A stretch of DNA of 53,631 nt from positions 1 through 53,631 of the forward strand of contig JAFVGI010000013.1 in the NCBI GenBank assembly GCA_017475005.1, written 5' to 3'. The notes below the pieces were generated by a model. That model was not told the origin of the DNA and did not search any database. It was given only the letters and a program-made list of their open reading frames with translations. The DNA is from Prevotella sp. Lineage in GTDB: Bacteria; Bacteroidota; Bacteroidia; Bacteroidales; Bacteroidaceae. The first letter of the stretch is position 1. Every line of letters starts with the position of its first letter. Shown here piece by piece: positions 4,640-24,144 of this stretch. Both the position numbers and the translations under genes were made by a program.

Positions 4640-6901
4640 ATGAATGTAATTACAAAGACGGTCTCTCTGCCTGATGGTCGTACCATCACCATTGAGACAG
4701 GAAAGTTGGCGAAGCAGGCTGATGGTAGCTGTACCCTGAGAATGGGAAATACTGTGCTTCTCGCCACTGTCTGTGCAGCAAAGGACGCAGTGCCTGGCAC
4801 AGATTTCATGCCACTGCAGGTAGAATATCGTGAGCAGTATGCTGCTGCTGGACGTTTCCCTGGTGGTTTCACAAAACGTGAGGGAAAAGCTAATGATGAT
4901 GAGATTCTCACATGTCGTCTCGTGGACCGCGCTCTGCGCCCACTGTTCCCAAGCGATTTTCATGCAGAAGTATTCGTAAACGTTATTTTGTTCAGTGCCG
5001 ATGGTGTAGATCAGCCTGATGCTCTCGCTGGTTTCGCTGCTTCATGTGCTCTGGCTTGTTCAGATATCCCCTTCGAGTGTCCTATCTCTGAGGTACGAGT
5101 AGCTCGCATAGGTGGAGAGTTTGTCATCAATCCTACAAAGGCTCAGATGGCTGATGCTGATATGGACCTGATGGTGGGTGCCACAAAGGACAACATCATG
5201 ATGGTAGAAGGTGAGATGAACGAAGTGCAGGAGGTTGACTTGCTGAATGCCCTCAAGGCTGCTCACGAGGCTATCAAGCCAATGTGTGTTATGCAGGAGG
5301 AGCTGATGAAGGAACTCGGCACAGATGTTAAGCGTGAGTATTGCCACGAGGTAAATGACGACGAGCTGAAGGAGCAGGTTAAGACAGAGTGCTACCAGAA
5401 GGCTTATGACGTTGTGAAGCAGGCTCTTGAGAAGCATGAGCGTGCTGATGCTTTCGAGAAAATCAAGGAAGACTTCAAGGAGGCTTATGCTGCTGCTCAC
5501 ACAGACCTCACAGAGGACGAGCTGGAAGAGAAGAAGGCTCTTGTTGACAAGTACTATCATGATGTAGAGCGCGATGCTATGCGTCGTTGTATCCTCGATG
5601 AGGGTGTGCGTCTCGATGGACGTAAGACAACAGATATCCGCCCAATATGGTGTGAGGTATCTCCATTGCCAATGCCTCACGGAAGCTCTATCTTCACTCG
5701 TGGTGAAACACAGTCTCTGTCAACAGTAACACTCGGTACAAAGCTTGACGAGAAACTCGTTGACGATGTTCTGGAGCGTTCTTATCAGAAGTTCCTGTTG
5801 CACTATAACTTCCCTCCTTTCTGTACTGGCGAAGCAAAGGCACAGAGAGGTGTAGGACGTCGTGAGATAGGTCACGGACACCTTGCATGGAGAGGTTTGA
5901 AGGGTCAGATTCCTGCTGACTTCCCTTACACAGTTCGTGTAGTGAGCCAGATACTGGAGTCTAACGGTTCTTCTTCTATGGCTACCGTTTGTGCCGGCAC
6001 ACTCGCCCTGATGGATGCTGGTGTTCCAATGAAGAAGCCTGTTTCTGGTATCGCAATGGGTCTTATCAAGAACCCAGGGGAGGATAAGTATGCAGTACTT
6101 TCTGATATCCTTGGTGATGAGGATCACCTTGGCGATATGGACTTTAAGACTACTGGAACAAAGGATGGTCTTACTGCAACACAGATGGATATCAAGTGTG
6201 ACGGCTTGTCATACGAAATATTGGAGAAGGCTCTGGCACAGGCTAAGGCTGGTCGTGAGCACATCCTTGGATGTATCACAGATACTATTGCTGAGCCAAG
6301 AGCAGAACTCAAGCCACAGGTACCTCGCATCGAGCAGATAGAGATTCCTAAGGAGTTCATCGGTGCTGTGATTGGCCCTGGTGGTAAGATTATCCAGCAG
6401 ATGCAGGAAGATACTGGTGCTACTATCACTATCGATGAAGAAGATGGTGTAGGAAAGGTACAGGTAAGCGCTCCTAACAAGGATGCCATCAATGCTGCTC
6501 TTGCTAAGATTAAGGCTATCGTAGCAGTACCAGAAGTTGGTGAGGTATATGAGGGAACAGTTCGTTCTGTTATGCCTTACGGTTGCTTCGTAGAGATTCT
6601 GCCAGGAAATGATGGCTTGCTCCATATCTCAGAAATTGACTGGAAGCGCCTTGAGACAGTAGAAGAAGCTGGCATCAAGGAGGGCGACAAGATAACAGTT
6701 AAGCTGGTGGAGATTGACTCAAAGACTGGTAAGTATAAACTCTCAAGAAAGGTGCTCCTGCCAAAGCCAGAAGGTTATGTAGAGCCACAGCGCAGACCTG
6801 CACGTCCTGAACGAGGCGAAAGAAGAGACAGAAAGTCTCGTCCAACACGCTTCAATGAAGGACAGAAGCCAGCAGAAGAGGCTCCAAAGACTGAAGAATA
6901 A
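4640..6901 (+). CDS. pnp: Polyribonucleotide nucleotidyltransferase (PNPase)
   Basis: PNPase degrades RNA from the 3' end phosphorolytically, releasing nucleoside diphosphates, and acts as a trimer in the cytoplasm. All domains are present in 753 residues: first RNase PH-like domain ([19 protein letters not shown]), an alpha-helical linker rich in Glu/Lys (about 230-310), second RNase PH domain (RGETQSL, TSGT-like [14 protein letters not shown]), a KH domain with the GxxG loop in [10 protein letters not shown], and an S1 domain ([19 protein letters not shown]). The tail is basic, then acidic and proline-rich, and probably disordered. It has its own promoter and a leader hairpin. The flippase gene follows 35 bp later and may be cotranscribed. 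Confidence 0.98.
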
Positions 6902-22436: not shown

Positions 22437-22463
22437 AAGGTGCAACCTCGAAAGTTGCACCTT
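22437..22463. terminator. Terminator after the DUF6078-like gene
   Basis: AAGGTGCAAC (22437-22446), 7-nt loop, GTTGCACCTT (22454-22463) is a perfect 10-bp stem. T-rich sequence follows on both strands, so it can act in both directions; it lies 13 bp past the stop of the minus-strand gene. Confidence 0.85.
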
Positions 22464-22476
22464 AATTTTTGGTATA

Positions 22477-22916
22477 TCACTCAAAATCCCAACCTTTTTC
22501 GTAGTGGTCAAAGGTCAGGCCGTCTGTAGGGCCGTATTGAGCCAAGATATTCAGGATTTCTTGCTGCTGATGGGGCGTGAGTTTGTTCTCGCCATGATGG
22601 TAGCGATAATATGGTCCGCAGCCCCTGCTGAAGTAATTCTTTACACAACGGCGTGCCTCAGCCTTCAGATAGTGTGGCACATTATCATAAATATGTGTGA
22701 ATCCCCACCTTTCTTCGTCTGTTTTATTTCGCTGAACCGCTGACACTGACCATCTTTCCAGGCATTCGGATAGACGGCTGGCCCGCCAAGCCGGTATTCA
22801 GCCTTCAGCAACCAAGCCTGATAGTGCATACATCTGTCGCGCAGTTGGCATTCTTCGTTGAAACAAAGTTGATATCCATAAGGAATATCTTTGCTATTCA
22901 GTTCTTTTTCTTGCAT
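22477..22916 (-). pseudogene. DUF6078-like protein, frameshifted
   Basis: Two overlapping minus-strand frames make one protein. Residues from 22916 give MQEKELNSKDIPYGYQLCFN with a Cys-rich block (CFNEECQLRDRCMHY) and CQRFSEIK; the other frame continues DEERWGFTHIYDNVPHYL to the stop at 22477, including RGCGPYYRYHHGENKLT. Together they fit a small Bacteroidetes protein of about 146 residues that I believe corresponds to DUF6078; function unknown. The frames join at the T4 tract at 22722-22725 (A4 on the coding strand), where one A appears to be missing. It could be a real mutation or an assembly error. Confidence 0.75.
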
Positions 22917-22981: not shown

Positions 22982-23043
22982 TTATTCCCACCCTGGGAAC
23001 AAAATATTCCCAGGGTGGGAATAAAACGTTCCCAGCGTGGGAA
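22982..23043. repeat. Array of three 15-bp palindromes, exact 22-bp period
   Basis: TTCCCA-NNN-TGGGAA occurs at 22985-22999 (centre CCC), 23007-23021 (GGG) and 23029-23043 (GCG); the starts are exactly 22 bp apart, with 7-bp AT-rich spacers. The first two units are also perfect reverse complements of each other over 18 bp (22982-22999 against 23007-23024), so they can form one long hairpin as well as separate small ones. The array lies between the end of dprA and the start of the frameshifted DUF6078-like gene. The 22-bp period is not a multiple of three, so it is not coding. Confidence 0.9.
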
Positions 23044-23061: not shown

Positions 23062-24144
23062 TTATGGGTTTATAAGGTGGAATTGGTTTCCTGAAAGGGC
23101 TCTTATTACACCTTTCATCTCAAGGGTGAAGATAGCAGCTGAGAGGGTGCTGATAGGAAGTCCTGTCTCTACACAGAGGGCGTCTTTTGTTTGGTCACCT
23201 TTCTGGAGGGCTTCTACAACTTTTCTCTCATCGTCAGAAAAATCGGTAAAAATCTCTCTTTCAATACCTTTCTTGCGAGCCTGCTGTATTTCCTGTTCTG
23301 CGTGCCATCCAAGATTTTTTATAATATCTCCTGCGGACGTTACGAGTACAGCCTTGTTGTCTCGTATAAGGGCGTTTGGTCCTTCACTCATGGGAGAGGT
23401 AATAGAGCCAGGGATAGCGAAGAGTTCCCGATTATAATCTATAGTAAGGCGGGCAGTAACCATTCCGCCTCCATGTATGGCGCTTTCTGGTATGAGAGTA
23501 GCATCGCTCATGCCTGCTATGATGCGATTTCTTTGGAGGAAGTTACGGGCTTCAGGAAAGGTATCGTGAAAGAATTCTGTTATTACAGCACCATTGCCGA
23601 GCACCATCTTGTTGGCTTCATTACGATGGTGGGCAGGGTATAGGGTTCCTTGTCCGTGAGCTACAACACCTATTGTGGGGATACCATTTCTCAATGCTGC
23701 CCTGTGAGCTGTTATATCGATACCATAGGCAAGGCCGCTGACAATATGCACATCAGGGATTTTTTCTGTCATTTCATCGACAATCCTGTCAATACAATCC
23801 TTGCCATAGGTTGTACATTGTCGTGTGCCGACAATGGAGATAGCATGCTGCGCATTAAGATTGGCCTTTCCACGAACGAAAAGCACCATAGGGGCATCGC
23901 AGCAATGCTTCAGCCGCTGAGGATAATCAGGGTCGGAGATGGTGACTATGCGTACCTTATTATTATTACACCATTCTAATTCTTCCTTTGCCCTTTTCTC
24001 AAGAGAAGGGAAATCAGCAGAAATGTGGGATGAGAGGAATTCCAAAGCCTCTTCCGCCGAACCCTTCTCGTCAAATGCTTTCTTGGCATCGAGCAGGCTC
24101 AGTTTCCCAAATGTCAGTTGTGATATGATTAGTTCTGAGAGCAA
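23062..24144 (-). CDS. dprA: DNA processing protein DprA/Smf
   Basis: DprA binds incoming single-stranded DNA and loads RecA during transformation. The 360-residue protein has the Rossmann-like core: SIVGTRQCTTYG, VSGLAYGIDITAHRAAL, the phosphate-binding stretch with GGGMVTARL, then FAIPGSITSPMSEGPNALI, followed by a C-terminal winged-helix region (about 295-355). The start is a TTG at 24144 that overlaps the upstream gene by 16 bp; no ATG exists near the family's usual N-terminus. The TTG lies inside TACTTTTG, a sequence resembling a -7 box, though no -33 match is seen. It is the last intact gene of a seven-gene minus-strand cluster. Confidence 0.93.
   Translation of the reverse strand: MLSELIISQLTFGKLSLLDAKKAFDEKGSAEEALEFLSSHISADFPSLEKRAKEELEWCNNNKVRIVTISDPDYPQRLKHCCDAPMVLFVRGKANLNAQHAISIVGTRQCTTYGKDCIDRIVDEMTEKIPDVHIVSGLAYGIDITAHRAALRNGIPTIGVVAHGQGTLYPAHHRNEANKMVLGNGAVITEFFHDTFPEARNFLQRNRIIAGMSDATLIPESAIHGGGMVTARLTIDYNRELFAIPGSITSPMSEGPNALIRDNKAVLVTSAGDIIKNLGWHAEQEIQQARKKGIEREIFTDFSDDERKVVEALQKGDQTKDALCVETGLPISTLSAAIFTLEMKGVIRALSGNQFHLINP

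Follow-up and report, generated by a model that had tools for sequence, protein, structure and literature searches.

Rickettsia palindromic elements (RPEs) are palindromic DNA inserted in frame in protein genes, and the iterons of R6K-type plasmids are direct repeats near 22 bp, helix-phased and located 5' of the initiator gene; plasmid iterons are not usually palindromic. REP elements, as described in PMC3733652, where Rickettsia palindromic elements are also named, are short, multi-copy palindromes tagged by GTAG or CGTC; they occupy the gaps of co-directional and convergent gene pairs, usually downstream of a gene, and some lie within genes. PARCELs are tandem 25-residue coding repeats with dyad symmetry (PMC2996958), and the BrickBuilt MITEs of Porphyromonas gingivalis are dispersed elements that contain a short tandem repeat with leader and tail sequences (PMC4596501). 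Palindromic structured-RNA candidates of Bacteroidetes are palindromic on both strands and have many predicted terminators, and one lies near D5-type domains (PMC8040213).

In this study, a phased palindromic array in a 53,631-nucleotide stretch of Prevotella DNA (hereafter the window) was analyzed together with its relatives in the genus. Like RPEs, the arrays occur in frame in genes for conserved proteins (19 of 126 arrays, several of them mutually orthologous), but they are phased, have three units, belong to another phylum and lie mainly outside genes. Arrays at loci with a VapE-like gene resemble R6K iterons in being phased and 5' of an initiator-like gene; they differ in that the units are palindromic and that, for most copies, no such gene was found nearby. 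Whereas a CRISPR array has long, unique spacers, those of the present arrays measure 7 bp and resemble one another within an array, and a CRISPR origin is not supported. Compared with REPs as presented in PMC3733652, the arrays also lie after genes, in convergent gaps and in some cases inside genes; however, the aligned flank columns (235 sides, judged from the columns) contain no GTAG or CGTC tag, a RAYT neighbor is not the rule, and the units stand on a 22-bp grid, mostly as triplets. Both PARCELs and the arrays are tandem units with dyad symmetry, but the arrays have 22-bp units and are mostly outside genes (PMC2996958). The arrays share with BrickBuilt elements that they are dispersed tandem repeats in Bacteroidota, but just about five letters are conserved outside them, without the leader and tail described in PMC4596501. 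With the structured-RNA candidates of Bacteroidetes the arrays have palindromic sequence and predicted terminators in common. No description of the 22-bp triplets was found in the main-text passages of PMC8040213 consulted, and none of such palindromes in Prevotella was found in the open-access literature searched. Judged from sequence, the arrays may best be read as a REP-like dispersed element.

The array in the window

The initial annotation had described three TTCCCA-N3-TGGGAA palindromes at an exact 22-bp period upstream of a frameshifted gene, and both points were borne out. The array consists of three exact TTCCCANNNTGGGAA units starting at 22985, 23007 and 23029, with a period of exactly 22 bp (Table 1). 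It is located 18 bp 3' of a gene that, by its protein sequence, is presumably dprA (DNA-processing protein A), and 68 bp 5' of a DUF6078 gene (PF19555) that is split over two frames (window 22477-22916, minus strand) and is either a pseudogene or affected by an assembly error. The dprA gene had matches in 35 of 40 genomes, its own included. On the dprA strand, the two spacers read TATTTTG and CGTTTTA. A two-way intrinsic terminator-like hairpin was also seen at 22437-22463 of the window, between the DUF6078 gene and the next gene.

Table 1. Array units, spacers and neighboring genes in the window
Feature	Position	Strand	Details
Palindrome unit 1	22985..22999	.	Centre CCC; exact match
Spacer 1, 7 bp, A/T-rich	23000..23006	.	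From sequence
Palindrome unit 2	23007..23021	.	Centre GGG; exact match; full-length partner of unit 1 in the fold
Spacer 2, 7 bp, A/T-rich	23022..23028	.	From sequence
Palindrome unit 3	23029..23043	.	Centre GCG; exact match
dprA (presumed)	23062..24144	-	ORF; stop codon 18 bp from the array
DUF6078 gene, first half	22665..22916	-	PF19555, E 2.1e-9, profile 1-70
DUF6078 gene, second half, other frame	22477..22746	-	PF19555, E 9.1e-15, profile 72-145

On the plus strand, units 1 and 2 are predicted to form a 20-pair stem and unit 3 a separate hairpin (-42.1 kcal/mol, z -7.7), and none of 200 shuffles folded as well; on the minus strand, units 1 and 3 are predicted to pair around unit 2 (z -6.1). 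Rfam gave no match in the window at the gathering score. At the dprA site of relatives, 28 of the 29 other dprA loci contained no TTCCC-N5-GGGAA; the only exception, L266, had one lone unit at the edge of the stretch.

Dispersal, anatomy and conservation

The window's own genome contains 13 exact units in five arrays, with none for the reversed control; in a further array on contig C68, the sixth, each unit carries a single mismatch. Of 150 genomes of the genus, 29, the window's own included, had at least one exact two-unit array, with 1 to 54 exact pairs per carrier; the reversed two-unit control was found in none of the 150. Given these empty reversed controls, both in the own genome and across the genus, the array is not a product of chance. 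A search with two mismatches gave no excess (110 vs 134 for the control), which marks the TTCCCA family as discrete. A scan of one genome per species yielded at least 120 array stretches. Among the 80 matches listed, 79 were labelled Prevotella, Xylanibacter, Prevotellaceae, Bacteroidaceae or Bacteroidales, and the remaining one, labelled Clostridiales, may be a binning error. The carriers include the isolates X. ruminicola Ga6B6, P. ruminicola KHT3 and Prevotella sp. ne3005. Of the three possibilities raised in the initial annotation, a dispersed repeat family is thus supported by the arrays of the own genome, the 29 carriers and the scan; the genome-wide search that it called for found other phased arrays, six in this genome in all.

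Arrays also occur on five viral contigs, four of which have one array region in common, and the idea of a phage element as such was rejected. On four viral contigs (L171:2081-2332, and L167, L168 and L170), the array is in frame in a small ORF, the ORF list covering L171 only. In L171, a gene that by eye looks integrase-like is situated some 0.9 kb away from the array.

The arrays form a family with one period, conserved arms, and variable loops and spacers. In total, 258 of 261 unit steps measured 22 bp, and the 125 distinct arrays had three units in 84 cases, four in 21, two in 14, five in five and six in one. The arms are TTCCCA and TGGGAA. Between them, the centre letters shun pairing (65 Watson-Crick pairs vs 104 expected in 362 units); the outer letters favor A..C or G..T over true pairs, and the centres are not random, ACG/CGT accounting for 100 of the 362. 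Neighboring units were in the same orientation in 66 cases vs 10 and had equal centres in 34 vs 10 expected by shuffling (66 arrays), so the units are slightly directional and stand head to tail. The spacers were also more alike within arrays than after shuffling (4.35 vs 3.10 of 7 letters; 84 arrays). Outside the arrays (235 sides), a YAATT signal is clear over about 5 bp, followed by a weak signal of at most 0.16 bit near positions 10-19 that extends to about 20. Array counts here include orthologous copies, which are not independent.

The array sample required two exact units, so arm conservation in it is partly a matter of choice; two comparisons between species are mostly free of this selection. 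For the orthologous gap of L063, both anchors were present at 32 loci; L063, L099 and L155 were chosen for their array, L423 repeats L099, and the rest were found via flanking DNA. Here 12 of the 32 loci carried the array (that of L420 is cut by the anchor), and in 37 units only 3 of 444 arm letters were off the consensus, with loops in 11 forms. Among seven VapE-type orthologues (the query's own locus included, all genomes chosen as array carriers), the arms were 89.9% identical between species, the loops 37% and the spacers 47%; the flanks were 36% and 49% identical vs 40% for shuffled flanks. From both comparisons it follows that the arms and the grid last and the rest turns over, although repeated conversion among copies, not selection, could have kept the arms alike. 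As for the conservation in relatives on which the initial annotation had staked its reading, the palindromes were kept at the two loci examined; at the window's dprA site, 29 other loci had no such array. Array-less species of the L063 gap (L418-L441) often contained other short repeats of the TTTCGTTA, TTACCTTTT and GGGTCTAAT types.

Changes in the arms indicate what may be recognized. In 551 units and six pair positions, 132 cells were changed on one side only and 11 were double changes, 8 of them paired. Double changes exceeded the expectation of about 2.6, but one-sided changes prevail, and compensatory change was considered weak as proof of a stem. Because most changes within the TTCCC family hit one arm only, a reader of the sequence is favored over pairing alone.

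Placement and transcript ends

According to a simple gene caller, 43 of the 126 arrays were in co-directional gaps, 23 in convergent gaps, 13 in divergent gaps, 19 in reading frames of at least 250 aa, and 28 at stretch edges. Compared with random placement in the same gaps, convergent gaps were enriched (23 of 79 gap arrays vs 12.5 expected, p 0.003), divergent gaps were depleted (13 vs 21.8, p 0.03), and co-directional gaps were near expectation (43 vs 44.7). In co-directional gaps, the array was closer to the stop in 31 cases and closer to the start in 12 (p 0.005). The shortage of arrays in divergent gaps, where promoters lie, and their surplus in convergent gaps make ordinary operators unlikely. 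A cooperative operator array, as had been suggested for the window, thus agrees with the fixed period and with conserved half-sites around variable centres, but not with this placement.

The in-frame copies read IPxxGxxxSQxGNxxFPxWE or circular shifts of it, with small variations. Sixteen of the 19 had three units (66 bp) and none had four, compared with 21 of the 107 other arrays. Six of them belong to one acyltransferase orthologue group, three to GH106 and three to CobB-like proteins; the host families named were PF01757, PF17132 and PF07685. The arrays of L062 and L106, near an ORF start, may be extragenic. Among orthologues of the array hosts, the array at one loop was intact, decayed or absent, and some orthologues had 22-bp triplets of another core word. 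A clean empty site was not found in these orthologues, and the array-less ones differ in loop length.

T-runs (at least six T in nine) were found on the far side of arrays no more than 80 bp after a gene end in 17 of 49 cases vs 20 of 173 other sides (Fisher p 0.0004); the other 32 of the 49 had no T-run. No strand bias of an RNA was seen in the placement of the 126 arrays, nor in the spacers of co-directional gaps, where T-rich spacers on the coding strand numbered 23 vs 16 A-rich ones (p 0.34), and such a bias was dropped as a candidate. Terminator scans called two terminator-like sites on the dprA strand of the window array (four in the region vs a shuffle mean of 2.0) and three at the L112 array (shuffle mean of 1.0 for the region).

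Relatives of two loci were inspected for what stands at the array's place. For the convergent gap of L112, 30 loci were available: 13 without an anchor, five with 0.6-1.1 kb between the anchors, three with a few tens of bases, and nine with a short gap. Judged by eye, two of the nine had the triplet (the query's own genome and that of L153), and one had a lone TTCCC hairpin enclosed by the same A- and T-runs; in the other six, ordinary hairpins with A- and T-runs were seen. For L126, five relatives of the left gene were viewed by eye: in L472 and L484, ordinary terminator hairpins occupied the position of the L126 array, two relatives continued into a different gene or the start of one, and the fifth showed none. 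A role at transcript ends is plausible because T-runs occur at gene ends and terminator hairpins stand at the same spot in relatives. The switchable RNA structure proposed for the window gains little support, since arm changes are mostly one-sided and no strand bias was seen.

A probable wider 22-bp class, spread and interpretation

A VapE-like gene (PF05272, some with PF08800) was found 0.2-0.5 kb from the array in 13 of 120 loci, with the array on its 5' side in all 13. These genes are multi-copy, with up to 20 matches per genome and at least one in 25 of 29 genomes, and several are followed by DUF6078. In sequences at or 5' of VapE genes of array carriers, a palindrome pair at period 22, with several core words, was found in 26 of 43 (some of these 43 were already known as array loci); period 21 gave four and other periods at most two. 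Control loci gave a pair at period 22 in 6 of 49 and at most three at other periods. The idea that the core word tracks the VapE lineage held in one seven-member group only (24 proteins) and was rejected. By eye, iteron-like direct repeats of about 10-11 bp (for example AGACCTAACA) were seen either next to the array or in the interval from it to the VapE-like gene at L065, L072, L102, L116 and L157. At L102:3-2924 (minus strand), a Cas9-like ORF, named by eye, adjoins the DUF6078 and VapE-like genes of the array locus.

Palindrome pairs of any core were also counted in 13 stretches of 20 kb from non-carriers, defined as genomes without exact TTCCCA pairs; these stretches were hand-picked from long contigs regardless of arrays and are not random. 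They contained 17 pairs at period 22, 14 at 44, and at most three at other periods between 15 and 44. The 17 pairs came from seven of the 13 stretches, six from L382 and four from L379, and L380 and L381 are probably one orthologous site. Seven 20-kb stretches of array carriers had one any-core pair at period 22 and up to two at others. In 20 stretches (337 kb) from other families of the order, no pair was found at period 22 and at most three at any period; the shuffled set likewise had no palindrome pair at period 22. The TTCCC family thus seems to be one word of a wider class of 22-bp arrays. A second phased class with CTTATT/AATAAG arms and period 21 was observed at L054:6328, L070:2838, L072:541 and L158:2114, each within about 100 bp of a 22-bp array.

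Copies and candidate partners were compared with regard to how the arrays may spread. Y1 transposase matches were found in 87 of 150 genomes. Twenty stretches with a Y1 gene were fetched, 17 of them belonging to array carriers and some truncated where the contig stops; 19 of the 20 had no unit at up to one mismatch, and in the remaining one, L179, the array is 3.2 kb away; at the array locus L068, a Y1 gene lies 293 bp away. No PF01797 match was found in G094 (99% complete), the genome with the most arrays. A RAYT/Y1 partner was rejected: a Y1 class of about 280 aa looked enriched in carriers, yet its genes lack flanking arrays, and the class also occurs in near relatives without exact arrays (G090 and G099, by protein ranking), so the enrichment was counted as a clade effect. 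DUF6078 occurs in 10 of 120 array loci and, by coordinates, beside arrays in G018, G031, G097, G121 and G136; as a partner it was discarded as not specific, since 63 of 121 non-carriers have it as well as 25 of 29 carriers. No binding protein for the arrays was found in this analysis. In G031, three near-identical arrays have related flanks, and therefore the copies there appear to travel with longer duplicated DNA. In G136, two arrays are 95% alike with no flank match at E 1e-4, and a third pair has weak flank matches; for unrelated triplets, the median likeness is 78% and the 99th percentile 90%. These comparisons hint that an array may move on its own. A CCCCTAAGGG/CCCTTAGGGG inverted repeat immediately adjoins the array of contig C9 (L014, near 5785-5830).

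Our favored reading, held tentatively and with less than even confidence, is that the window array is one copy of a dispersed Prevotella family whose units are read by a symmetric protein and whose gene-end copies mark the transcript end. The arms of the TTCCCA arrays look like sites read by sequence on DNA, and the gene-end copies look like transcript ends. A symmetric DNA-binding protein probably reads the arrays: each TTCCCA-N3-TGGGAA would be a site for such a sequence-reading protein, and the 22-bp grid, about two helical turns, would set the bound dimers on one helix face. Just after a gene such as dprA, the element may act as a transcript boundary, through hairpins with T-runs, a protein roadblock, or both. 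The arrays within long reading frames count against this boundary role, because a terminator or roadblock should hurt there, as do the 32 of 49 gene-end arrays that lack a T-run and the co-directional spacers with no clear T-rich preference; the shared orientation of neighboring units counts against a purely symmetric reader, which needs no direction.

The same gene-end bias, T-runs, called terminator-like sites and, by eye, hairpins at the same site in some relatives would also fit tandem intrinsic terminators alone: a series of three RNA hairpins, each with a short A/T-rich spacer behind it, that work unaided by any reader protein. This is possible but somewhat unlikely: pairing alone should then matter, yet arm changes are mostly one-sided, in-gene copies exist, the spacers show no strand bias, and nothing evident in RNA would call for so strict a 22-bp period. 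It appears unlikely that the arrays are selfish palindromes of the REP or RPE kind that a transposase (HUH/RAYT or other) moves and that are tolerated at gene ends and in protein loops. Sporadic copy number, in-frame copies in conserved genes, a placement like that published for REPs (PMC3733652), the frequent Y1 matches and the alike arrays of G136 with unmatched flanks are what such elements would show; the Y1 stretches, with L068 as the exception, nevertheless lack nearby units, the array-richest genome lacks a PF01797 match, the G031 copies share related flanks, and no clean empty site was found. A RAYT partner is not supported.

It is improbable that the arrays are iteron-like control arrays of replication-initiator-like, VapE-type helicase loci, with the dispersed copies as escaped or decoy sites. 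The constant 5' position, the excess of period-22 pairs at VapE-locus sequences and the direct repeats noted by eye in several loci point to such a role, but some of those sequences were known array loci, the gene is missing from the clusters of the fetched stretch at 107 of 120 array loci, TTCCC recurs in distant VapE clades with other words between, and the window's own genome has no match to the VapE class at E 1e-20. A broader reading is doubtful: a genus-wide class set by geometry, with near-symmetric palindromes on a strict 22-bp grid and exchangeable core words (TTCCC, CGGACT, AAACT, GTTTCC, CAAAA and others), each word with its own protein, would have its home in VapE-type 5' regions, and the dispersed arrays would be bound by the same readers throughout the genome to delimit transcripts or chromosome regions. 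Least credible, indeed very improbable, is a functionless minisatellite, in which slippage and template switching would have multiplied a palindromic 22-bp unit and kept its copies similar. The likeness of adjacent centres and spacers within arrays agrees with it, but slippage explains neither one period across unrelated cores nor arms that outlast loops and flanks between species.

The conserved arms are a clear bait for a reader protein, and with the fixed 22-bp grid cooperative binding can be tested directly; arrays occur in named isolates, so the question is open to experiment. If the favored reading is true, a common gut and rumen genus bears phased DNA elements for which no name was found in the literature searched, and such elements would sit where transcripts end and could lie inside proteins with the frame unbroken.
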